From Desulfobacterales bacterium (GTDB lineage: Bacteria; Desulfobacterota; Desulfobacteria; Desulfobacterales; JAAELO01), in assembly GCA_024226555.1 (NCBI GenBank), contig JAAELO010000592.1, positions 1-50,771 of the forward strand: 50,771 nucleotides of DNA. Reading direction: 5' to 3'. The translations under genes were made by a program, and so were the position numbers. The first letter of the stretch is position 1; every line of letters begins with the position of its first letter. Below are positions 1,456 to 48,330 of this stretch, piece after piece. Under the pieces are notes generated by a model. That model saw only the letters and a list, made by a program, of their open reading frames with translations. It was not told the DNA's origin and did no database searches.

Positions 1456-2193
1456 ATGGACTTCATTTCAATAGAAAAGGCAGGTTTTGAGGCTTGGCCA
1501 GCTTTTGAACAGCATGACAGAGATGGTTGGATTATTCGTTTTGCTGAAGGTTATACAAAAAGGGCGAATTCGGTTAACCCTCTGACTAATGCTGGGAATT
1601 CTGTCGAAAAACAGATTATTAATTATGAAGAGGAATACAACCACAGAAAACTTCCATGCATATTTAGATTACTATCATTCAATGATAATTCACAAATAGA
1701 GACTATTCTCGATTCCCGTGGTTATAATCGGGACGATCATTCTCTTGTACTCGTTCAGGAACTTCAAAGCAAAGAGTTTGTTTCTACTTCACTGGAACGT
1801 TTGGAAGTTGATGAATGGATGACCTGTTATTGCGAACTAAGTAAAAAAAATATAGAAGATCATAACACCCACATTAAAATGATCAATAGAATCAAGGATG
1901 GAATTTTACTTGTTGTTCTTAGAAGAGCTTCAAAAGAAGTATCATGTGGGTTAGGAGTAATTCATAATGGTATTTTTGGCATATTCGATATTGTTACTCA
2001 TAATGAGTATAGAAATAAAGGATGTGGGACTGAATTAATCAATGGAATGTTGTCGTGGGCAGTTTACAACGGAGCTCATACAGCATATGTTCAGGTGGTT
2101 GCTGAGAACAGACCAGCGATTAATTTATATAAAAAACTTGGCTATATTCCAGGATATGAGTACTACTACAAAATTCAAAATTATAAACGATAA
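1456..2193 (+). CDS. GNAT-family N-acetyltransferase (double-domain type)
   Basis: A 245-residue protein. The C-terminal half is a typical GNAT fold: the acetyl-CoA motif A is YRNKGCG at 185-191 (R/Q-x-x-G-x-G), followed by ENRPAINLYKKLGY. The N-terminal half holds the block DGWIIRFAEGYTKRANSV (24-40). This block marks a group of long GNAT proteins in which the first half is a degenerate acetyltransferase domain. The acyl acceptor is unknown. The start follows AAAGGTG. The gene stands alone between an R1 copy upstream and an R1 fragment downstream. The family assignment is firm; the substrate is not. Confidence 0.85.
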   Translation: MDFISIEKAGFEAWPAFEQHDRDGWIIRFAEGYTKRANSVNPLTNAGNSVEKQIINYEEEYNHRKLPCIFRLLSFNDNSQIETILDSRGYNRDDHSLVLVQELQSKEFVSTSLERLEVDEWMTCYCELSKKNIEDHNTHIKMINRIKDGILLVVLRRASKEVSCGLGVIHNGIFGIFDIVTHNEYRNKGCGTELINGMLSWAVYNGAHTAYVQVVAENRPAINLYKKLGYIPGYEYYYKIQNYKR

Positions 2194-2220
2194 GGTGAGA
2201 TCGTTAGGTTTACCTTCATA

Positions 2221-2276
2221 GTCATTTTTTTCTCATATCTTGTATTTGAATCAAAACTTTTATTATTAGAGGTTCT
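2221..2276 (+). repeat. R1 element, right-half fragment
   Basis: TTTTTTTCTCATATCTTGTA leads to TTATTAGAGGTTCT (2263-2276). This matches the right-hand module of other copies and is the reverse complement of the first 57 bases of the copy at 1145. No matching left end is visible, so this is a fragment. Confidence 0.65.
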
Positions 2277-2379
2277 TAAACTATTCTAACTTTTTATTCA
2301 CTTTTCAAAGTGATTCTCTTCATTTGCCTGATTCCTGTCAAAACTGTATCAATGTATAAAACTAAAAAGGAAGAGAAGA

Positions 2380-2988
2380 ATGGATCAGAAATATCTTGAT
2401 AAACTACTTTTTAATGCACTTAATAGTAACGACATTGAGGGAATAAAAGATGCTCTTGAAAAAGGAGCGAATGGAAATGTGGAAACAAAAAAAGGAGCTA
2501 CTCCTTTAATGATTCTATCAAAATTGAACCACAACTCCATACCCTTAATAGAGCTTGCCGATTGTTTAATAGAAGCTGGTGCCGATGTCAATTACATCAA
2601 TAAAAAGGGATTCACAGTTCTCTCAAATATGATGAAATCTGCATTTGTAGAGATCAATCTGTTTTCCCACTTAATAAAAAAGCACAATGCAGATATAAAC
2701 CAAACTGTTAAGATTAAACAGGATGGGGAATTAAAAGAGTTTTCACTACTTGAGTTTGCATATATGAACTCTCTCGATAAAAGCATTATTGAGTTTCTTG
2801 AAAGTCTTGGAGCCAAAAAACTATTTGATAGTGATGAGCTCAAAGAGAGTTTTGAATCAAGATACGAAATAATGGATAAGGGTTTCAGAGATAGTGGCAT
2901 TTATGACATTATCGAAGAAAAGACTTCTGGCAGGAAAAAGAATATCTTCCAAAAAGCAAAGAATTTTATTCTGAAATTATTTAAATAG
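2380..2988 (+). CDS. Small ankyrin-repeat protein
   Basis: A 202-residue protein without signal peptide. About three ankyrin-type units are visible: LLFNALNSNDIEGIKDALEKGAN (9-31, in pieces), then KKGATPLMILSK ending in LIEAGADVNYIN, then KKGFTVLSNMM ending in HNADINQ. The C-terminal 60 residues are charged and helical with no recognised domain. Ankyrin repeats mediate protein-protein contacts; the partner is unknown. A good ribosome site (AAAGGAAGAG) precedes the ATG. The gene is a single unit flanked by R1 sequences on both sides. Confidence 0.8.
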   Translation: MDQKYLDKLLFNALNSNDIEGIKDALEKGANGNVETKKGATPLMILSKLNHNSIPLIELADCLIEAGADVNYINKKGFTVLSNMMKSAFVEINLFSHLIKKHNADINQTVKIKQDGELKEFSLLEFAYMNSLDKSIIEFLESLGAKKLFDSDELKESFESRYEIMDKGFRDSGIYDIIEEKTSGRKKNIFQKAKNFILKLFK

Positions 2989-3028
2989 AATTTTCTGAAT
3001 CAAAGGTCTCTAATAAAAAAGCATATGT

Positions 3029-3155
3029 GAATCTCTAATAACTGCTCTTTTTGCGAAATACTTCGTTATTACCAAAAAAAACTGTTGTAAAATCGGTTCG
3101 TTATTTTTGGTCATGCCTTGTATTTCATCAAAAATTCTAATTATTAGAGGTTCCC
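3029..3155 (+). repeat. R1 element, complete 127-bp copy
   Basis: The left end is GAATCTCTAATAA (3029-3041) and the right end is TTATTAGAGGTTCCC (3141-3155). The left module, ACTGCTCTTTTTGCGAAATA, matches the copies at 33207 and at the window start. The right module, CCTTGTATTTCATCAAAAAT, is also shared. An extra left-type end, AGGTCTCTAATAA, sits just upstream at 3004-3016. Confidence 0.8.
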
Positions 3156-3180
3156 ATGTTCCCTTAAAGAAAAAGATATT

Positions 3181-3216
3181 GATCTGATTTGGTTCATACA
3201 ATAACCAAATCAGATC
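3181..3216 (-). terminator. Perfect 14-bp hairpin after the 3222-3935 gene
   Basis: GATCTGATTTGGTT (3181-3194) and AACCAAATCAGATC (3203-3216) form a perfect 14-bp stem with an 8-base loop, six bases past the minus-strand stop. On the minus strand it is followed by AATATCTTTTTC. It is most likely a terminator. Confidence 0.7.
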
Positions 3217-3221
3217 TTGAG

Positions 3222-3935
3222 TTATTTCACATATTTTTTAATAATTGCATTATATCTACCGGATTTTCTAAGCATTTTGAGGCCTGCATTAAAATCATTT
3301 CTAATTGATGCATCATTAAAAAGTACTTTGTATTTAACTCCTTTAAAGAGTTCATGGAGCTTTATTTTAGCAGTAGTCTTCATACCCTTAACCTTTTTCT
3401 TATAAAACTTAAAAATATTTATATCAGAAACTATCAGGTCTGTTCTGCCTGAGTAAAGTAGTTTTACCTGTAATACCTGTTTTGCAATTTCTGAATATTT
3501 TGGATTTGATTTAACAGTTTTAGCATATAAAGGGCCAAGGTATTTTGTTGCATTCTGAAAAGCTACTATTTTTTTATCTTTCAAATCATTTATAGAATTG
3601 ACCTTCACACTATTCTTCTTTAGAGATATAGCATAATTTTTATAGGTCATGACATCATTTGAGTAATTACCCTTAATACCAGATGATTCATTTATAGTTA
3701 CTGCACCATCAACTTTTTTATAATCAACAGCTACTCTGACAAAAGGGACATATTTTATTTTCAGCACATGACCTTTTTTTGCAAGCGCTTCTTTAATAAT
3801 ATCATACTCCATCCCTGAGTTACTCTCCTGAATGATATAGGGTGGTAAGGACAGGCCCGCTACAAGAGTAACTTCTTTAGCGGTTGCTGAAAATGCGATG
3901 AACATAATAAAAATGAATAGGGCTAATCTTTTCAT
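3222..3935 (-). CDS. Periplasmic solute-binding protein, family 3
   Basis: A 237-residue protein with a clear signal peptide ending near FSATA-KEV. Family-3 landmarks are LPPYIIQESNSGMEYDI near the N-terminus (lobe I, ligand pocket), DGAVTINESSG, then the second lobe with LKDKKIVAFQNATKYLGP and the short C-terminal helix MLRKSGRYNAIIKKYVK. It is more distant from the other two binding proteins nearby than they are from each other. No transporter genes adjoin it. It lies about 60 bp downstream of the 3999-4790 gene on the same strand, so the two may be co-transcribed, ending at the hairpin at 3181. Ligand unknown. Confidence 0.85.
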   Translation of the reverse strand: MKRLALFIFIMFIAFSATAKEVTLVAGLSLPPYIIQESNSGMEYDIIKEALAKKGHVLKIKYVPFVRVAVDYKKVDGAVTINESSGIKGNYSNDVMTYKNYAISLKKNSVKVNSINDLKDKKIVAFQNATKYLGPLYAKTVKSNPKYSEIAKQVLQVKLLYSGRTDLIVSDINIFKFYKKKVKGMKTTAKIKLHELFKGVKYKVLFNDASIRNDFNAGLKMLRKSGRYNAIIKKYVK

Positions 3936-3998: not shown

Positions 3999-4790
3999 TC
4001 ACTCAATTCCATAACGATCTTTTGAAAATTTATTTGCAGTGTGTCCCCATTTTTTATAAATATTTTCAATTTTTCCTGATTTTGAAAGTATGGTCATCCT
4101 TTTATCAAAAAATTTTATTAGCTCTTTTGAATTTTCTGTATTGGAAAATTTCAAAAATAATTTTTCGCCTAATCTAACTGTTTTCAGATCATATTTTTTT
4201 AAATCAATTCCTAATTTTCTGCTTTCAAATTTGATCGCTGATTCGTAATCTATAAATACATCTAATCGGTTTGCAGCTATCATTTTAATCCCCTGGGTAA
4301 GGGTTGTTAGTTCAACCTTTATTACATTTGCTTTAAACCAGTTTTTTTTATCGAAATCATAACCCCTGATCCATCCAACTATTTTGCGATCTATCGCTTT
4401 TACTCCTTTTTTTTTCCAGGCAGTTATTGTTCCTTTTTTAAAAAAGGCAATGATAGGGTCTTCAACACTTATATGCCAGTTAGGATATCTGAAATCTTTA
4501 CCGGATTGGTTTTTATGATAATAATCACCAAGTATAGCATCTGCTGATTTGTGTAATACTTGATGGTTAGCCCTTTTCCATGGCATTATTGAAGTTTTTA
4601 CTTTTATGCCGACAGGTTCATAAACTGCTTTTACAATTTCCCAATAGACTCCGGTTCCATCCTTGTTTGTATAACCAGGCCAGTTTTCACAAACAACATA
4701 AACGCTGTTTAAATTCCCAGCAAAAGCGAATGTGTTTTCAATACAGATAACTACAATTATAATACGAATAAATATTAATACCCTTTTCAT
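3999..4790 (-). CDS. Periplasmic solute-binding protein, family 3 (paralogue of 233-1012)
   Basis: A 263-residue protein with signal peptide (MKRVLIFIRIIIVV..., cleavage near AFAG-N). It is collinear with the 233-1012 protein over its whole length: GTGVYWEIVKAVYEP, IMPWKRAN, GDYYHKNQSGKDF, WHISVEDPII, GWIRGYDFDKKNW, FLKFSNTENSKELIKFFDKRMT, IYKKWGH. The pair looks like a local duplication later separated by other genes and R1 elements. It is an orphan binding protein with unknown ligand. The ATG follows CATGAAAAGC..-type context with AGGACAT just upstream on the minus strand, a modest ribosome site. Confidence 0.85.
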   Translation of the reverse strand: MKRVLIFIRIIIVVICIENTFAFAGNLNSVYVVCENWPGYTNKDGTGVYWEIVKAVYEPVGIKVKTSIMPWKRANHQVLHKSADAILGDYYHKNQSGKDFRYPNWHISVEDPIIAFFKKGTITAWKKKGVKAIDRKIVGWIRGYDFDKKNWFKANVIKVELTTLTQGIKMIAANRLDVFIDYESAIKFESRKLGIDLKKYDLKTVRLGEKLFLKFSNTENSKELIKFFDKRMTILSKSGKIENIYKKWGHTANKFSKDRYGIE

Positions 4791-33218: not shown

Positions 33219-33341
33219 TAACTGATCTTTTTGCGAAACACAGAAAACTTTATAAAATAAAACCTTTTTTATAAACGAATCAACCGTTGTTTTTTGTTAT
33301 GCCTTGTTTTTCATCAAAAATTCTAATTATTAGAGGTTCCC
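33207..33341 (+). repeat. R1 element, complete 135-bp copy overlapping the MarR stop codon
   Basis: From GGGAATCTCTAATAA (33207-33221) to TTATTAGAGGTTCCC (33327-33341). The left module is ACTGATCTTTTTGCGAAACA and the right module is CCTTGTTTTTCATCAAAAAT. It supplies the last three sense codons and the stop of the MarR gene, and ends 2 bases before the ribosome site (AGGAGG, 33344-33349 region) of the next gene. Confidence 0.85.
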
Positions 33342-33355
33342 AGGAGGTAAATAAA

Positions 33356-34156
33356 ATGAAAATTGAATCTGTGAAATTAGTTTATTTTTCACCTACCGGA
33401 ACAACAAAAGCGGTTGTTCAGGGCATTGTAAATGGTATTAATCCAGACACCACGGAATTAATAGATATAACCAGTCCGGAAGCAAGAAGAAAGCCTCTGG
33501 AGACCTCGGATAATGAATTACTTATCGTTGCAGTTCCCGTTTATATGGGGAGAGTGCCGGCTTTATTAAATGAATGGCTGAATTCAATTAAAGCTCATAA
33601 TACTCCAACGGTCTGTGTTGTTGTCTATGGTAATCGTGCATATGAGAATGCACTACTTGAATTAAAAGATATCGTAGTATGCTGCGGGTGTATTCCCATT
33701 GCCGGTGCGGCATATATAGGGGAACACTCATTCTCAGATTCCGAGACACCAGTAGCATTAGGACGTCCCGATGAAGATGATTTAAACAATACAAAAATAT
33801 TTGGGCAGAAAATACGTGAAAAGATAGAATCTGTTTCATCCATCTCTAACATTTCTGAACTATCTGTGCCCGGAAGTTATCCTTATGAAGGAATTACAAA
33901 GTTATGGGATGTGGATTTTATTGAAGTGAGCGATCAATGCACACAATGTGGTCTTTGTGCAGAGGTGTGCCCTGTTGGTGCTGTGGATTCTGAAAATAGT
34001 GCTATGATCAATAAAGAAAAATGCATAACTTGTTGTGCATGTATCAAGAGTTGTCCTGAAAACGCCAGAACAATTAAACCCGGTCCGTTGAGAGAAGCAC
34101 AAAAAAGGCTTATTAACCTTTATAAAGAACCAAAAAAGCCGGAATATTTTTTGTAA
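33356..34156 (+). CDS. EFR1-type flavodoxin/ferredoxin fusion protein (cytoplasmic)
   Basis: 266 residues from the ATG at 33356, which has AGGAGG 7 bases upstream. A longer frame starting in the R1 element is not believable. Residues 7-160 are a flavodoxin domain: the FMN loop SPTGTTKAV (12-20), then VAVPVYMGRVPALLNEWL. Residues 190-240 hold two [4Fe-4S] motifs: C195, C198, C201, C205 and C223, C226, C229, C233. EFR1-family proteins pass electrons between iron-sulfur and flavin centres in anaerobes. It is probably regulated with the MarR gene just upstream. There is no signal peptide, unlike its relative at 39958. Confidence 0.88.
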   Translation: MKIESVKLVYFSPTGTTKAVVQGIVNGINPDTTELIDITSPEARRKPLETSDNELLIVAVPVYMGRVPALLNEWLNSIKAHNTPTVCVVVYGNRAYENALLELKDIVVCCGCIPIAGAAYIGEHSFSDSETPVALGRPDEDDLNNTKIFGQKIREKIESVSSISNISELSVPGSYPYEGITKLWDVDFIEVSDQCTQCGLCAEVCPVGAVDSENSAMINKEKCITCCACIKSCPENARTIKPGPLREAQKRLINLYKEPKKPEYFL

Positions 34157-38894: not shown

Positions 38895-39701
38895 TCAGAA
38901 TTTATAGGATAACCCAAGAGAACTAATGAACTGATCTCTATCTTTTACAATTGGACTATCTACTGCATCTGATACGAGTCTTTTATAATTTCCAATAACC
39001 TGAAGCGTCCAGTTTTCATCCAGATGCAACATCCCAACTATGTTAGCCTCAACGGACTTAAAACCGGCTTCTGCATTATAAACAGCAAGTCCGGATCGCG
39101 AGGATTGGGTTGAATTCACACTAAAATATTTTTCCATGTATTTATCATTTGCATAAGTTGCTTTCACACCGGTCATTACAATAAAAGCTTTATTTAAAGG
39201 CAAAATCAAACCTAATCCATAGTTAAGCTTAAAACCTGTATTTTCCCCAGTAAACTGCTTCTCGTAACCTGCATCTAATCTTAGCATTCCAAGTTTTATT
39301 TTAAGGGCCACATTACCTTTTGCACCACTTTCAACATCACCAAGACCGTTCAGGTCATCAGAGTCATCTTCATCTCTACCAAATTCATAGCCAACAGCTG
39401 TACTTAATTGGATATACTTACTTTTCCACAAGAACATTCCAAGACCTTTGTTAGCACTAAAAAAGTACCTGTCATATTTGATTTCAATTATTGGGTATAT
39501 TACTTCGTTATAATCATCCGCCCCCTCATATTCAGGGATATAGAGTTCCATCACTCCTATAGAAATGGAATTTTTATCTCTTCCTTTTTTTTCTTCAACC
39601 CTCTCTTTTGCCTTTTTTAAATCTGATTGAGCAAATGAGTTCTCTACCGTTACTATTGCAAACAAACCAATTACTATTAGAATTATCAAATTGCGTGTCA
39701 T
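38895..39701 (-). CDS. MipA/OmpV-family outer-membrane protein
   Basis: 268 residues. The signal peptide ends near SFAQ-SD, then a short charged helix (LKKAKERVEEKKGRDKN) precedes the barrel. The family hallmark is IGVMELYIPEYEGADDYNEV followed by YPIIEIKYDRYFFSANKGLG. Barrel strands follow to the terminal FISSLGLSYKF. MipA/OmpV proteins are outer-membrane barrels implicated in scaffold roles for murein enzymes or antibiotic uptake. GGTGAG precedes the ATG. It is a single gene. Confidence 0.85.
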   Translation of the reverse strand: MTRNLIILIVIGLFAIVTVENSFAQSDLKKAKERVEEKKGRDKNSISIGVMELYIPEYEGADDYNEVIYPIIEIKYDRYFFSANKGLGMFLWKSKYIQLSTAVGYEFGRDEDDSDDLNGLGDVESGAKGNVALKIKLGMLRLDAGYEKQFTGENTGFKLNYGLGLILPLNKAFIVMTGVKATYANDKYMEKYFSVNSTQSSRSGLAVYNAEAGFKSVEANIVGMLHLDENWTLQVIGNYKRLVSDAVDSPIVKDRDQFISSLGLSYKF

Positions 39702-39957: not shown

Positions 39958-40893
39958 TCAATACTCAAAACTGAGATTATTCTTCTTCAAATAATCATTA
40001 AAACCTACTACTCTTTTATCCCGATACATAATATTTATAGCCTGATAATCACAATTGTTTACACAACCAAGGCAAAAAATACATGTATCTGTGTTTACAG
40101 TAAAAGAATCCGGATCAATCGATTTCGTGGGACATTTCTCTCTGCATTTTCCGCATCCTACGCATTTTTCTTTTATAATATAGTGATTATCAGTAAATTT
40201 TTTTGTCCACCAGGCTGGTCCGAAAAAGGTAGAAAACTCTCTTAGAGTCAAAGATTTTTTAAAAGTAGAAGAACTCCCATTTTTTACTTCCGATATTATA
40301 GTTCCGGCATACTCCCTTACTTTTTTATAGGTCTTTCTATCAGGTAAAATAGTGTTCTCTTTTGTTTTAAAATTTTTTTCATCGTCATAGATCATTGTAA
40401 AAGAGCTTATTGATTGAAAAAAGGAGAGTCCCACTGGCACACCTTTTTTTAAGGCAAGCTCTTCCAGTATTGAACAAGCTGCATTATACTGATTTCCTTC
40501 AGGTCCGCCAAATGTAACATATGCTGCAACAGGAACACCCTCAAGATCTTGAAGGGATTGAATAAACTTTTTAACATATTCGGGAACATCATAATAAAAA
40601 ACTGGTGCTCCAATAACAAGTAGATCAATATTTTTTATTGAGTTCTCATTAAAATCACGAATCTCACCTGAAGAAACATCAATTTTATTTTTTTCGAGGG
40701 TTTCTGCAAGTACTTTTCCACACCGCATTGTGTTTCCGGTCTGGCTGTACCATAATACAGCAGCTTTGTTTATACTCTTTGTTTTCATTGGTACTGTTGC
40801 CTGTATAGAACTATAACATGAAGGCAATGTTGGTAATGCTGCCGCTGTTCCAATTAACACACTTTTCTTTAGAAAAGATCTTCTGCTTTCCAT
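39958..40893 (-). CDS. Tat-exported EFR1-type flavodoxin/ferredoxin lipoprotein
   Basis: 311 residues from the ATG at 40893. GGTGG is 8 bases upstream, and an earlier ATG 6 codons upstream has no ribosome site. The N-terminus carries a twin-arginine signal SRRSFLKKS (3-11), a hydrophobic stretch and a lipobox LPSC (C26). A flavodoxin domain follows with FMN loop SQTGNTMRCG, then two [4Fe-4S] motifs: C244, C247, C250, C254 and C271, C274, C277, C281. The protein should fold with cofactors in the cytoplasm and be exported as a lipoprotein. It is downstream of the AOR gene on the same strand, with an R1 mini-element between. A role in electron exchange with the AOR/ferredoxin pair is inferred. 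Confidence 0.87.
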   Translation of the reverse strand: MESRRSFLKKSVLIGTAAALPTLPSCYSSIQATVPMKTKSINKAAVLWYSQTGNTMRCGKVLAETLEKNKIDVSSGEIRDFNENSIKNIDLLVIGAPVFYYDVPEYVKKFIQSLQDLEGVPVAAYVTFGGPEGNQYNAACSILEELALKKGVPVGLSFFQSISSFTMIYDDEKNFKTKENTILPDRKTYKKVREYAGTIISEVKNGSSSTFKKSLTLREFSTFFGPAWWTKKFTDNHYIIKEKCVGCGKCREKCPTKSIDPDSFTVNTDTCIFCLGCVNNCDYQAINIMYRDKRVVGFNDYLKKNNLSFEY

Positions 40894-40940
40894 AAATTCC
40901 ACCGTTATCAAATAATTTATTAAATCTGATCAAAATCCAA

Positions 40941-40989
40941 GGAACCTAATAACTGTTTTTTTTATCAAAGTTCTGATTATTAGAGGCTC
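40941..40989. repeat. R1 mini-element (49 bp)
   Basis: GGAACCTAATAA (40941-40952) and TTATTAGAGGCTC (40977-40989) are joined by only about 24 bases of interior. It lies between the AOR stop and the EFR1 start. This is the smallest copy seen, essentially two ends and a loop. Confidence 0.7.
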
Positions 40990-41001
40990 ACTAATATAAT
41001 T

Positions 41002-42837
41002 TTAAATAGTAAAACCCAGTCCCAGTTCAGACAGTTTTTTATTAGTTGGTTTTGTTGTTACAGGGTCCCATTTGCGCTTTACATAGAACTCATCCATCAT
41101 AGCATTGAAATCTTCTTTGTTCAGAAGAGCTCCCTTTTCCTCGCCTTTTGTATAGGGTTCTGCAAAAAACCGGTCTGGCAGGTTATCATCTTCCCGCCTG
41201 AACCCTTCCCGAAAATTGAACATCTTTTCCAGGTTGAAGACACGTTCTCCTACTTTGATGAATCTGTCTTCATCCCAGTCAATCCCGGTAATGGCTGTTA
41301 ATAATTCACCAAGGAGGTTTTTGTCTACTCCTGGCATCAACACTTTGTTAAAATCTGTAGCAAAAAAACAAATACCCAATGAATCCACTGCAGCCATAAA
41401 ATTCTGGTCTGAAATAGTATCGCCACACAAATGGCAGGCACCACGATTTGAAACAGAATAACTAAGGGCCCTTGGTGGATTTGCATGGATATTGTGTGCG
41501 GCCAGTTCCAGACCTTTAACATGAATGGCAAAAGCATCACTTCCTTGTCCGATTTTTTGAGAAACAGCTTTTACACCATTGGCAGCCAGATCTCCGATAC
41601 CATCACGATAAGCAATTTTGGAAATAAATTTTATCACTGAATCCACATTCCCCCAGATGAGGTCAAGACCATCCAGATCTGTTTTGGTAACCAAACCTTT
41701 TTCATATGCTTCCATGAAAAAACCAATCACATTGCCTGCAGAGATTATATCCATTCCTAAATCATCTCCATCATAAATTGCCTTCATCATTCCGTTAAAA
41801 TCAGAGATCATTAAATTTGCACCGAACATGGTACCTGTTTCATATTCCGGACCATCATGCACAATAGTTTTATGTGGACCATCTTTAACAGCACCGCTTT
41901 TTTTACATGCCAGAGGGCAGCAGTAGCATGCAAAATCCCTCACCCATGCTTTTTCCCTGGCGGTTTTAGCATTAATTTTTTCAATTTCTGAATAGGTTCC
42001 TTCACGATAATTTTTTACAGCCATTAATCCATCATCACTAAGTGTTTGAAGGAAAGCTGCCGTACCCCACTTCCTGAATAAGTCTGTCTTTATCCCATCC
42101 ACAGGTCCAGTCGATGTATCACGTACTTTTTTTAAAGCTATGCTGAATTTTTTATGATCAGCAATATGTGGCATACCAGTACCTTTTACAGCGATGGCTT
42201 TCAGGTTTTTTGATCCCATCACTGCCCCAACACCCCTTCCTGCTGCCCGGGCAGTTGTGTGCAGGATACAGGCATAGGAAACAAGATTTTCACCGGCAGG
42301 TCCTATGTAACAGGTTTGAAAACGTTCGTTGTTTAGTTGTTTGACAATAGCTTTATCAAATTCGTCTGTTTTCATCCCCCAATATGCTCTGGCATCCCTG
42401 ATTTCAACCCTGTTGTCTTCAATAACGATATATGAGGGGTGTTTTGCTTTTCCTGATATCAAAATACCATCATACCCTGCAAACCTGATTTCAGGTCCAA
42501 AAAAACCACCCATATTGGAGTAGCTGACAGTGGAAGAAGACGTTAGAGATTTGTTTTCAGGTGATGTACAGGGCGATTTGGTTACAACAACCACTCTGGA
42601 AGCTGAAGGAATAGGAAATCCTGAAAAGGGACCGGGCATAAACATCAACGGATTCTCTGGAGAAAGAGCCCCAATACCAGGTTTTTTTAATCTATCCCAT
42701 ATTAATTTCATACCCAGACCCCTTCCACCTAAAAAATTTTCGATATCCTCCCTTGGGATTGGAACAGTTTTTATCTCTTTTGTAGTAAGGTTTATATCCA
42801 GTAGAACTTTATGGTATCCAAAAAAATTATCTTTCAT
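41002..42837 (-). CDS. Aldehyde:ferredoxin oxidoreductase family protein (W/Mo-pterin enzyme)
   Basis: 611 residues, the normal size. The AOR N-terminal domain has FLGGRGLGMKLIWDRL (35-50) and SNMGGFFGPEIRFAGYDGIL. The [4Fe-4S] ligands are C304, C307 and C311 in CYCCPLAC, plus C490 in DSLGICFFATDF. The pterin-binding region is seen in RAAGRGVGAVMGSKNLKAIA, GMDIISAGN and LSYSVSNRGACHLCGDT. The enzyme oxidises aldehydes (or reduces acids) with a tungsten or molybdenum bis-pterin site. It has no signal peptide itself. It follows the Tat ferredoxin gene by 9 bp (AGGAG in the gap), so the two form a subunit pair. E. coli YdhV-type AOR homologues show a similar partnership with multi-cluster ferredoxins. 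Confidence 0.93.
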   Translation of the reverse strand: MKDNFFGYHKVLLDINLTTKEIKTVPIPREDIENFLGGRGLGMKLIWDRLKKPGIGALSPENPLMFMPGPFSGFPIPSASRVVVVTKSPCTSPENKSLTSSSTVSYSNMGGFFGPEIRFAGYDGILISGKAKHPSYIVIEDNRVEIRDARAYWGMKTDEFDKAIVKQLNNERFQTCYIGPAGENLVSYACILHTTARAAGRGVGAVMGSKNLKAIAVKGTGMPHIADHKKFSIALKKVRDTSTGPVDGIKTDLFRKWGTAAFLQTLSDDGLMAVKNYREGTYSEIEKINAKTAREKAWVRDFACYCCPLACKKSGAVKDGPHKTIVHDGPEYETGTMFGANLMISDFNGMMKAIYDGDDLGMDIISAGNVIGFFMEAYEKGLVTKTDLDGLDLIWGNVDSVIKFISKIAYRDGIGDLAANGVKAVSQKIGQGSDAFAIHVKGLELAAHNIHANPPRALSYSVSNRGACHLCGDTISDQNFMAAVDSLGICFFATDFNKVLMPGVDKNLLGELLTAITGIDWDEDRFIKVGERVFNLEKMFNFREGFRREDDNLPDRFFAEPYTKGEEKGALLNKEDFNAMMDEFYVKRKWDPVTTKPTNKKLSELGLGFTI

Positions 42838-42846
42838 AACAACTCC

Positions 42847-43575
42847 TTATACGTTCAGGTTGTACCAACGCTTATTCAATTTTTCTGCAATATCTTCAGG
42901 AGACATCCTGTAGTATGGATATGCAGTATCTACACGAAGAACAGAAAGTGCCTCATATGGACAATGCTCTAAACACTTTGGGTCACCACCACACAGTGTA
43001 CACATACGCATTGGTTTATTCGTCGCAGGGTTCTGAGACAGAATGCCTACACTTGAATCAGCACAGGCAGAAACGCAATTACCACACCCAATACAACGAT
43101 CAGTATCATTTGTAATAAGATCGTATTTTCCACTTTGATAAAGAGCTCTTCTGTTTGTAACCGGATCCGGCTTTACAGGACAGGAATTTACACAAGGGAT
43201 ATCATCACATCGCGCACATGTAACCGGAACATCCACATCGGGATTAAAAGAATGAACACGGATATTTGCATGAACAGGATTTCCCAAATCTGATTTATAG
43301 CGACCATCCCTGAACAACGGGTTGTTGTATGCAGTACAAACTGCCTCACATGTGCGACAGCCAGTACATTTTGAATAATCAACGGCTATAAATGAATAAA
43401 TTTGCTTTCCTGAGCCAGTATCGAAAACAGAAGTAACTTTTGCCCCACAACCTGCAAGCAGTACTAATGATCCGCCACCAATAGCCAGTTTCATTATGAA
43501 TTCTCTTCTGGTTAAAGCTCTTTTTTCATGTGTCGAGCTCTTTCGATAAACCTCTGGTGTTTTATTATCTTCCAT
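42847..43575 (-). CDS. Tat-exported 4x[4Fe-4S] ferredoxin lipoprotein, electron-transfer partner of AOR
   Basis: 242 residues from the ATG at 43575, chosen because GGAG lies 8 bases upstream; an ATG four codons earlier has none. Tat motif LTRREFIMK (21-29) and lipobox LLAGC (C43). Four cluster motifs: C70-C73-C76-C80, C120-C123-C128-C132, C161-C164-C167-C171, C192-C195-C201-C205. This is the DmsB/HybA-like arrangement. No membrane anchor other than the lipid is seen. Gene order (regulator, ferredoxin, AOR) suggests that it either carries the AOR through the Tat system as a partner or docks to it at the membrane. Confidence 0.92.
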   Translation of the reverse strand: MEDNKTPEVYRKSSTHEKRALTRREFIMKLAIGGGSLVLLAGCGAKVTSVFDTGSGKQIYSFIAVDYSKCTGCRTCEAVCTAYNNPLFRDGRYKSDLGNPVHANIRVHSFNPDVDVPVTCARCDDIPCVNSCPVKPDPVTNRRALYQSGKYDLITNDTDRCIGCGNCVSACADSSVGILSQNPATNKPMRMCTLCGGDPKCLEHCPYEALSVLRVDTAYPYYRMSPEDIAEKLNKRWYNLNV

Positions 43576-43636
43576 TATCGACTCCATATATTTTTAACTG
43601 TTAAACTGAAATTGTTCAGGATATTAAATTTGAAAT

Positions 43637-44641
43637 TTATTGATTTTTAAACATTTCAGAACGCATTCTTTTTGGTGTGACCCCTGTCCATTTACGAAAC
43701 GCTCGTGCGAATGAATTAGGGTCATCAAATCCCAGTAAAAAAGAGATTTCTGATCCTGTTAAGGTTGAGTTTGCCAAATAGTGGCGGGAGAGTTGCTCCC
43801 TGGTCTTTTTGAGTTCAGCCTGAAAACTGGTTTTTTCAATACTTAAATGGCGTTGCATGGTTCGTTTACTTATAGCAAGTTTTCTTGCAACTTCTTCAGT
43901 AGATCCTTGTCCTGCAGGCAAAAGCTCAAGAAGAGAGCTGCGAACACGATTAGCAAACGATGCTTTTTCATCAAAGTCTGACAACCGTTTACGAAGTTCA
44001 GGTTCAAAAAACCCCCACATTCCTTGATTCTCAGAAAGAAACGGCAATTTAGCATCCTCAGATGAAAAAATAACCTGATTTAATTTACCTGATTTCGGTG
44101 TTACTCCAAAAAAATCCGTATAGGCCTTATCATTCAGAATTCGGGATAAATTGGATACACTGAGTGGATTTATCTTCTCCCGGGTAGCAAGCCTTACCAA
44201 ATGCACAAGAAAAACAAGTTCAAAGGCAATCAACGACTCAGGAAGCGGTTTATCAGTATACAGGCAGTCCAAAGTAATGATTGTTTTATCTTCATCTACT
44301 TCAACACCTAATGTCATGGGACCAATTAGTTTTTTGTATTGACTTAAACGCGATACAGCTTCATTCATATTACTGCTGCAAAATACTGCAAAAATCGCAG
44401 GGCTGAATGACTCAGCAGTAATTACAGTTCCCAGCCTAAGTGGAAATAAAGGATCATTTACAGTTTTTTCAAGACTGTCCCAAAGCCTGAAGTAATCATC
44501 TGTTGACAGGGCAATGTTTTTTCCTGATAATATACCACTGGGAAACTCACCACGTTTTAATACTTCTGCCATATTAACACCAAGGTCACTCAAAATCAGA
44601 TTCCAGGAGATATCCACTACAAATTTCATTGCTTGGTTCAT
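43637..44641 (-). CDS. AraC-family transcriptional regulator (Arabinose_bd-like sensor domain)
   Basis: 334 residues. The N-terminal ~200 residues match the ligand domain found in the OruR/AraC group (start with LGVNMAEVLKRGEF, then NIALSTDDYFRLWDSLEKTV). The C-terminal DNA-binding domain carries two HTH units: STEEVARKLAISKRTMQRHL and GSEISFLLGFDDPNSFARAF, RKWTGVTPKRMRSEM. It lies 61 bp upstream of the ferredoxin gene on the same strand and is the obvious candidate to control the ferredoxin-AOR genes in response to a small organic ligand, perhaps an aldehyde or acid (inference). Confidence 0.9.
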   Translation of the reverse strand: MNQAMKFVVDISWNLILSDLGVNMAEVLKRGEFPSGILSGKNIALSTDDYFRLWDSLEKTVNDPLFPLRLGTVITAESFSPAIFAVFCSSNMNEAVSRLSQYKKLIGPMTLGVEVDEDKTIITLDCLYTDKPLPESLIAFELVFLVHLVRLATREKINPLSVSNLSRILNDKAYTDFFGVTPKSGKLNQVIFSSEDAKLPFLSENQGMWGFFEPELRKRLSDFDEKASFANRVRSSLLELLPAGQGSTEEVARKLAISKRTMQRHLSIEKTSFQAELKKTREQLSRHYLANSTLTGSEISFLLGFDDPNSFARAFRKWTGVTPKRMRSEMFKNQ

Positions 44642-47625: not shown

Positions 47626-48330
47626 TTATTTCTCTAATATCTCAACACTGATTTTTTGAGCCATTCCATAGCCAAGAACAAATCTTTTGCTATCGGCTGC
47701 AATAACAAACTGACCTTTTCCCTGACTTGTTAATATCTCAATTTTGTCTCCAATGCGAAGGCCCATATCTTTTAAATGTTTCACGCAATTCCTACCAGAA
47801 GCAAAATCTCTTATTATTAGCTTATCTCCGGGTTTAGCCATCATGAGTGGCATTGTCTGGACTCTAAGGTCAACACAATCTGAGCAGATACCGTACATTT
47901 CCAGCTTATGTTGTAGCAGATGAAACCCCTTCATCGAGGCTATTTGATTTTGGAGGGATTCAAGCTCATCGTTATGAAATTCAATAATTTTTCCGCACTT
48001 GGTACAAACCATATGATCATGATGTTGTCCAAGATGTCTGTGTTCATAAAGAGCTGGTCTGTTTTCAAACTTATTCATGTGTGCAAAGCCATATTTACAC
48101 ATATGTTCCAGAGTATCTTTTATGAAGTGGATTTCAAACTCATATCCCTTTTCATTTAAAATATCATCAAGTTTATGTAATGTGATATGTTCTTCAGTTT
48201 GTAAAAAGGCATCCAGAACAATTATTCTGTTGTCAATGCCATCAATACCTTCCTGCTTGAAGAGTTTTATAAACTGTTCTTTTTCACTTTTGTGGATCGA
48301 ATTGTTGTTTGTTTCCATTTTAAATACCAT
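47626..48330 (-). CDS. Fur-family metalloregulator fused to a FeoA domain
   Basis: 234 residues. Residues 15-155 are a Fur-family repressor: winged helix (DNRIIVLDAFLQTEEHITLH, KLDDIL), then the metal sites HRHLGQHHDHMVC (97-109), CTKC (C109, C112), and CSDC (C149, C152) for structural zinc. Residues 160-234 are a FeoA/SH3-like domain: AKPGDKLIIRDFASGRNCVK, HLKDMGLRIGDKIEILTSQG, and FVLGYGMAQKISVEIL. FeoA domains normally stand alone next to FeoB or sit at the C-terminus of DtxR/MntR-type regulators; on a Fur protein the fusion is unusual. The first ATG (48330) has AGGA 8 bases upstream. It is probably an iron-responsive DNA-binding protein in the cytoplasm. Confidence 0.9.
   Translation of the reverse strand: MVFKMETNNNSIHKSEKEQFIKLFKQEGIDGIDNRIIVLDAFLQTEEHITLHKLDDILNEKGYEFEIHFIKDTLEHMCKYGFAHMNKFENRPALYEHRHLGQHHDHMVCTKCGKIIEFHNDELESLQNQIASMKGFHLLQHKLEMYGICSDCVDLRVQTMPLMMAKPGDKLIIRDFASGRNCVKHLKDMGLRIGDKIEILTSQGKGQFVIAADSKRFVLGYGMAQKISVEILEK

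Follow-up and report, generated by a model that had tools for sequence, protein, structure and literature searches.

A conserved WorS–WorL gene pair as a candidate Tat-exported, tungsten-family aldehyde oxidase in Desulfobacterales and other bacteria

Enzymes of the AOR family are normally cytoplasmic. In the available text of PMC13328260, from which we take the names WorL for the catalytic subunit and WorS for the ferredoxin-like small subunit, the WORs are sorted into five classes, and the members exported by the twin-arginine translocation (Tat) system are described as Class V, in which WorS has a Tat signal and/or a membrane helix, at least one further subunit is reported for all members, and the distribution is restricted to Clade 41. 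That text assigns all exported WORs to Clade 41 and gives no activity or role for them. Both Class V, exemplified by Escherichia coli YdhV and CsWOR41 and described as membrane-associated, and Class II, exemplified by Pyrococcus furiosus WOR5/ASOR and C. bescii GOR, contain an AOR-family WorL and a WorS; Class II consists only of WorL and a four-cluster WorS, and is described as cytoplasmic and as lacking a Tat signal, the mark of Class V. A third relative, AorABC of Aromatoleum aromaticum, joins a WorL to a four-cluster, polyferredoxin-like small subunit in a filament that is NAD-linked and also contains AorC, an FAD subunit (PMC10413684, available text). Here, we describe a WorS–WorL gene pair in a 50,771-nucleotide stretch of a Desulfobacterales genome (assembly GCA_024226555.1, contig JAAELO010000592.1, the whole of which is called the window below). 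Our best reading, to which we give a probability of about 0.55, is that WorS carries WorL out of the cytoplasm and that WorL oxidizes aldehydes at the outer face of the cytoplasmic membrane.

The pair consists of the following features.

42847–43587, minus strand: WorS, a four-cluster ferredoxin small subunit of 246 amino acids and predicted Tat lipoprotein (families, motif, and PDB matches)
43447–43587, minus strand: N-terminal signal of WorS, residues 1–47, with the Tat motif TRREFIMK from 43512 and the lipobox LAGC
41002–42837, minus strand: WorL, an AOR-family catalytic subunit of 611 amino acids without a signal of its own (Pfam and PDB match)

WorL belongs to the AOR/WOR family, scoring 235 bits for AFOR_N and 375 bits for AFOR_C in Pfam (cut-offs 29.8 and 27), and it matches 1aor_A in the PDB with an E value of 7.5e-107. 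WOR5 is among its nine PDB matches, and the AOR entries match so much better than 4z3w, BamB, that BamB is ruled out as its identity. For WorS, the best PDB matches (6x6u_B, 6x1o_B, 8c0z_C, and 9mqx_E) all come from AOR-family entries, of which they are the small subunits, the top one being that of WOR5, and its 16 cluster cysteines are invariant in all five sequences compared (the window and four homologues). The N-terminus of WorS (ALTRREFIMKLAIGGGSLVLLAGC) combines a complete Tat motif, TRREFIMK, with a hydrophobic core and the canonical lipobox LAGC, that is, the twin arginine, core, and lipobox cysteine by which a Tat lipoprotein is recognized; here and below, the assignment “Tat” is based on motif, hydrophobic core, and conservation. 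The N-terminus of WorL (MKDNFFGYHKVLL) has no signal. An earlier note on this stretch had pointed to an AOR without a signal encoded 9 bp after a four-cluster ferredoxin with a Tat motif and a lipobox, and both the layout (stop to start, 42838–42846) and the motifs are as it described. The ferredoxin and the region also stand, with the correction that the upper limit it gave, 43575, is the second ATG, and the open reading frame (ORF) starts at 43587.

The pair is conserved well beyond the window. One genome of each species was scanned with a query alignment of four WorL sequences, which gave 77 loci. Fifteen of these, in which WorL identity does not exceed 38%, were left out (L117, L119, L122, L123, L125, L128, L131, L132, L134, L135, L136, L138, L140, L144, and L147). 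The remaining 62 loci and the window form what we call the clade (63 loci, WorL identity 48–80%), which is thus delimited by WorL identity and not by the export signal. It spans the Desulfobacterota, the Acidobacteriota/Aminicenantes, the Bacteroidota/Chlorobiota, the Zixibacteria, and one metagenome-assembled genome (MAG) of the Bacillota, and includes named Geomonas and Geotalea strains. ORFs were called mechanically, and because the greedy caller hid some genes beneath antisense ORFs (WorS in L091, L106, and L143; WorL in L089), the WorS counts were taken from tblastn. By this measure WorS is present in 62 of the 63 loci and always lies upstream of WorL on the same strand, and the two matched segments are no more than 200 bases apart in 59 of them. 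The spacing is larger in L114, L146, and L103, the last of which has a pair of the nucleotidyltransferase/HepT toxin–antitoxin type (Pfam) inserted between the two genes at 4071–4707. The sole locus without WorS is L099, where the contig starts 870 bases ahead of WorL and another ORF intervenes. Within the phylum itself, a WorL with 59% identity or more was found in three of 395 genomes sampled, the host included, and the remaining matches among those listed at E ≤1e-100 reach at most 42% identity. WorS–WorL is therefore a conserved unit, and its order, for which the earlier note had allowed chance, is not a chance placement (62/63 loci, with the twin-arginine counts of the next paragraph, 56/62 against 18/565). 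As a separate observation, WorL is split into two ORFs in L114 and L121, which come from Geotalea toluenoxydans and one acidobacteriotal MAG.

The export signal recurs with the pair. Between the upstream stop and the first cluster motif, where RK and RQ were accepted in addition to RR, the clade WorS proteins have RR in 56 of 62, RK in five (L110, L113, L116, L124, and L141), and RQ in one (L097), with a hydrophobic stretch after the motif in every case, so that the Class V trait of a WorS with a Tat signal and/or a membrane helix is found by motif across the 62 proteins. The same Tat motif places the pair outside the definition of Class II, which is a WorL with a four-cluster WorS lacking such a signal. 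As a control, a closely similar test for RR only, in the first 70 residues of the called ORFs, was applied to the 565 other ORFs in the same loci with a length of 150 amino acids or more, and 18 were positive; two of these 18 are EFR1 proteins, and a few others resemble genuine Tat signals. A lipobox is present in nine of the 62 WorS (the window, L071–L075, L081, L118, and L142), all beside a WorL at least 73% identical to that of the window. TatC was found in all five genomes checked (this genome and four relatives). A Tat-signalled small subunit also occurs beside a WorL outside the clade, in L058 (G323), where the WorL at 1501–3267 is 36% identical to that of the window and the upstream small subunit has a Tat motif and an AxA-like site (SRRSFLKGAGTAAGL...AHAQ). 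No such signal was seen in the small subunits beside the distant WorL of L117, L119, L123, L032, L052, and L056. The host genome (7.69 Mb in 904 contigs) has seven AFOR_N matches, and the three ferredoxin-like ORFs found near its other six AOR-family genes (L031, L032, and L033) have no RR signal.

The following series of events would account for these features. WorS and WorL would fold in the cytoplasm as a heterodimer with a pyranopterin metal cofactor and five [4Fe-4S] clusters, and the Tat translocase would export the folded heterodimer whole, WorL hitchhiking on the signal of WorS. In the close relatives of the window, WorS would then be tethered by a lipid on its N-terminal cysteine, whereas in the rest of the clade its signal would serve without a lipobox. 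At the outer face of the cytoplasmic membrane WorL would oxidize an aldehyde to the acid, and the electrons would pass from the WorL cluster through the four WorS clusters to an acceptor in the envelope. The available text of PMC13328260 gives the aldehyde/acid couple as near −500 mV, and a higher-potential envelope acceptor should therefore be energetically easy. The complex, its export and orientation, and its substrate, metal, and acceptor are thus what we infer from the genes and motifs. The earlier note had suggested that the AOR may be carried out by its Tat partner; the suggestion is well supported by the WorS pairing (62/63) and the RR count, and export as such had already been described for other WORs (PMC13328260, available text).

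A different arrangement would have WorS alone exported or anchored with WorL staying in the cytoplasm, or the RR signal acting as an N-terminal membrane anchor with WorS facing inward. The lack of a signal on WorL would fit such an arrangement, as would the many clade WorS signals without a clear cleavage site and, in L127, an EFR1-like gene without a visible signal directly upstream of WorS. On the other hand, small subunits are integral to the solved AOR-family complexes, in which they pair with WorL (PMC10413684, available text), the two genes are closely spaced in 59 of the 62 loci, and signal-less hitchhiking partners are known for other Tat substrates (PMC10924467, available text). We therefore consider this arrangement very unlikely.

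The active site is the second element of our reading, namely that the exported WorL is an aldehyde oxidase. Residues were mapped on P. furiosus AOR and on a 78-row alignment, with clade counts taken from 32 of the 63 WorL; an AlphaFold model of WorL built from four sequences was too poor for use (mean predicted local distance difference test score, 36.4). T259, E331, Y332, E333, and H469 of WorL correspond to Thr243, Glu311, Tyr312, Glu313, and His448 of P. furiosus AOR, all of which are retained in 32/32 clade WorL, and Asn93 is retained in 30. The ligands of a [4Fe-4S] cluster are also in place, with Cys 304, 307, and 311 in all 32 and Cys 490 in 31, the remaining sequence having a gap. The available texts of PMC12096430 and PMC13328260 link the conserved residues to aldehyde oxidation, and the former proposes a role in it for Glu313 and His448. 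The Glu313 place sets the clade apart from the exported WORs already described: the clade has Glu in 32/32, whereas ten YdhV-type enzymes, which represent Clade 41 in our residue counts and trees, have Cys in 10/10. According to the available text of PMC12096430, the metal of YdhV has an additional ligand, Cys336, and the second shell is missing; the same is said of BamB. An alternative alignment method moved the YdhV rows by several residues in the Glu313 block, and the Cys assignment in these rows rests for this reason also on PMC12096430. The ten rows include E. coli YdhV and a C. somerae gene whose neighbours (ABC-transporter, FdhD, TatA, TatC, and MoeA) fit the description of CsWOR41 in PMC13328260, as far as its available text goes. 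A Tat motif lies upstream in eight of the ten, the exceptions being E. coli YdhY and L151.

Several observations weigh against an exported aldehyde oxidase. Of the second shell, Thr243, Glu313, Tyr427, and His448, three residues are retained in all 32 clade WorL and Tyr427 in none, 20 having Trp and 12 His at its place. No aldehyde activity was seen with the partially purified L subunit of WOR41 from C. somerae, an exported-type enzyme, although this one is a member of the Cys-ligand clade (PMC13328260, available text). The second arginine is absent from six of the 62 WorS signals (RK or RQ). Outside L083, L084, and the Geomonas/Geotalea loci there is no direct context of aldehyde genes, and among the 62 loci compared, many of whose contigs end close by, no recurring membrane quinone subunit was found next to the pair. 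The change at Tyr427 also suits an exported WorSL acting on another substrate, for example sulfonates as in P. furiosus WOR5/ASOR, or working as a reductase. ASOR is a WorL–WorS enzyme active on taurine (PMC13328260, available text), and WOR5, as noted above, appears in the PDB matches of both subunits. Nevertheless, the intact Thr243, Glu311, Tyr312, Glu313, and His448 and the aldehyde-reductase neighbours at some loci speak for aldehydes, and another substrate or direction seems to us unlikely.

These neighbours were counted in 62 of the 63 loci, L089 being omitted. When the neighbouring ORFs were clustered, WorL appeared in 61 loci, WorS in 58, and the next commonest family in seven, so that no family other than WorL and WorS exceeds 7/62, although further subunits may be encoded elsewhere or past the contig ends. 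Unlike AorABC, the clade loci have no recurring third gene of the AorC kind. A zinc alcohol dehydrogenase occurs in seven loci (L084, L087, L088, L090, L111, L114, and L120), and of the two compared with E. coli YahK, which is annotated as an aldehyde reductase, that of L084 is 59% identical to it and that of L087 57%. A regulator 32–37% identical to YqhC occurs in six loci, an aldo/keto reductase in five, and a Flavodoxin_4 protein in four; in E. coli, yqhD and its neighbour are upregulated by YqhC with aldehydes (PMC6115493, available text). L089 itself has regulator, aldo/keto reductase, and flavodoxin ORFs that resemble those of its Geomonas relatives. In the window and L071, an EFR1 and another type of AraC regulator stand in place of the aldehyde-gene neighbours.

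Does the clade descend from the same exported ancestor as Class V? In a quick tree of 78 WorL the clade was one group (support 97) and the YdhV group lay apart on a long branch. The quick search missed a better tree, and we therefore prefer a careful tree of 51 rows, including two BamB-type rows, in which the clade is recovered at 100/99 and the YdhV and BamB-type rows stand opposite it at 99/99, with the bootstrap unsettled. Both BamB-type rows, L177 and L184, which were included as an outgroup, come from a Geotalea genome, L184 being 54% identical to L177, and neither is an established working BamB. L177 is worth recording in its own right: this BamB homologue of Geotalea toluenoxydans (G446) matches the solved BamB at 3e-185 and has Ser where the MMKCF stretch of the latter has Cys.

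An alternative history is one ancient Tat-exported WOR from which both the clade and Class V/Clade 41 descend, the Cys ligand having been gained later in the YdhV line. The WorL trees leave room for it, since the approximately unbiased (AU) test does not reject a forced union of the clade and the YdhV group, either in the quick tree (p 0.705, with the forced tree ahead of the free one by 13.6 log units) or in the careful tree (p 0.185, with the forced tree behind by 10.5 log units). Against it, the free trees separate the groups and place YdhV with the two BamB-type rows, and the residue at the Glu313 place divides them without exception. In the WorS tree, non-Tat small subunits fall between the two Tat groups and the forced union gives an AU p of 0.042, in a tree of 157 columns with several long or gappy rows that did not recover the clade WorS as a single group. 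Taken together, we judge common descent of this kind to be unlikely as well.

On the sequences compared, then, both sequence and active site set the clade apart from Clade 41, and its inclusion in Clade 41 is supported neither by the active-site residues nor by the free WorL trees. Relative to the known exported WORs, it is the lineage and the active site that differ, not export itself, and no gene for a further subunit, as reported for Class V, was seen to recur beside the pair in the 62 loci compared. In the open-access literature searched, we did not find the WorS–WorL lineage described. We hold the stronger claim tentatively, at slightly less than even odds: a separate Tat-exported WOR lineage that evolved independently, lies outside Clade 41, occurs in several phyla, and has kept an aldehyde-oxidizing active site; it would be the first envelope-side tungsten-family aldehyde oxidase, built only of WorL and WorS and with lipid-anchored forms in the Desulfobacterales. 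The clade puts an export signal of the Clade 41 kind on enzymes with an aldehyde-type active site. If the reading is true, AOR-family aldehyde oxidation would be possible outside the cytoplasm, where a different electron acceptor is to be expected, and an exported WOR would be at hand for which a substrate can be guessed and put to the test.

Two further genes flank the pair in the window, so that the minus-strand order from 44641 down to 39958 is AraC regulator, WorS, WorL, and EFR1.

43637–44641, minus strand: AraC-family regulator (Pfam Arabinose_bd and HTH_18)
39958–40893, minus strand: EFR1-type flavodoxin and 2[4Fe-4S] protein with a Tat signal and a lipobox-like Cys26, an optional accessory (NF038196, motif)
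40816–40893, minus strand: N-terminal signal of EFR1, residues 1–26 (sequence motif)

EFR1 scores 111.4 bits for NF038196 (cut-off 75), the family that unites a flavodoxin with two [4Fe-4S] clusters, and its likely start is the ATG at 40893, 108 bp past WorL, with a TTG upstream at 40911 also possible. Its N-terminus (MESRRSFLKKSVLIGTAAALPTLPSC) was said to have the same double signal as WorS. The Tat motif, SRRSFLKK, is indeed complete; the cysteine lies within LPSC, however, where Pro at −2 makes the lipobox non-canonical, and a Cys near the same place is seen again in some homologues.

The earlier note had asked how widely the order regulator–ferredoxin–AOR–EFR1 recurs and had suggested a possible envelope-side tungstoenzyme system. 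The ferredoxin–AOR part is the conserved one, and the flanking genes are not: an exported EFR1 adjoins WorS–WorL in 2/62 loci compared (the window and L071), and the window's type of AraC regulator likewise in 2/62, the one in L071 being 48% identical. For these two genes, the placement beside the pair may be due to chance. The four gene types are also found together in L071, a locus on the contig of G014/L028, where EFR1 is divergent, and the EFR1s of both loci have Tat motifs; this would suit a four-gene system controlled by the AraC regulator, with EFR1 as an exported redox partner dedicated to the AOR. The two loci are nevertheless few, the EFR1-like protein of L127 mentioned above is a distant one (26%) without a visible signal, and exported EFR1s stand alone in other genomes. 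EFR1 relatives (E ≤1e-20) occur in 14 of 297 phylum genomes sampled, host included; besides that of the window there are 15 such places, of which 12 were fetched. An RR motif is visible in eight of these 12 (L202, L203, L204, L206, L207, L208, L209, and L211), the gene is hidden from the caller in L205 and L210, and the called ORF has no RR in L212 and L213. No called ORF matching WorL or WorS was found in the 12 places. The host genome itself has an 80% identical Tat-EFR1 paralogue (G000:C405:8861–9793; L202, 8861–9796) with no AOR gene among the called ORFs around it. A dedicated four-gene system is thus quite unlikely, and EFR1 as a general fixed partner is ruled out. The exported EFR1 is a free-standing subgroup of its family, marked by the Tat signal and only occasionally adjoining a WOR. 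In this organism, its position beside the pair lets us guess that it may serve as the electron acceptor of WorSL.

Some other genes in these regions may be mentioned. Directly downstream of EFR1 and on the same strand, the window has a MipA-family outer membrane protein (38895–39701, minus strand; Pfam). At 33287–34156 on the plus strand lies a protein resembling EFR1, with a flavodoxin-like start and a ferredoxin-like end and without a Tat motif, and at 47626–48330 on the minus strand a single protein of 234 amino acids fuses Fur and FeoA domains (Pfam FUR, FeoA). Near the WorS–WorL pair of G014/L071, positions 2419–6488 of L028 encode a fusion of FmdE with a molybdopterin-binding (MoCF) domain, adjoining a molybdopterin oxidoreductase.

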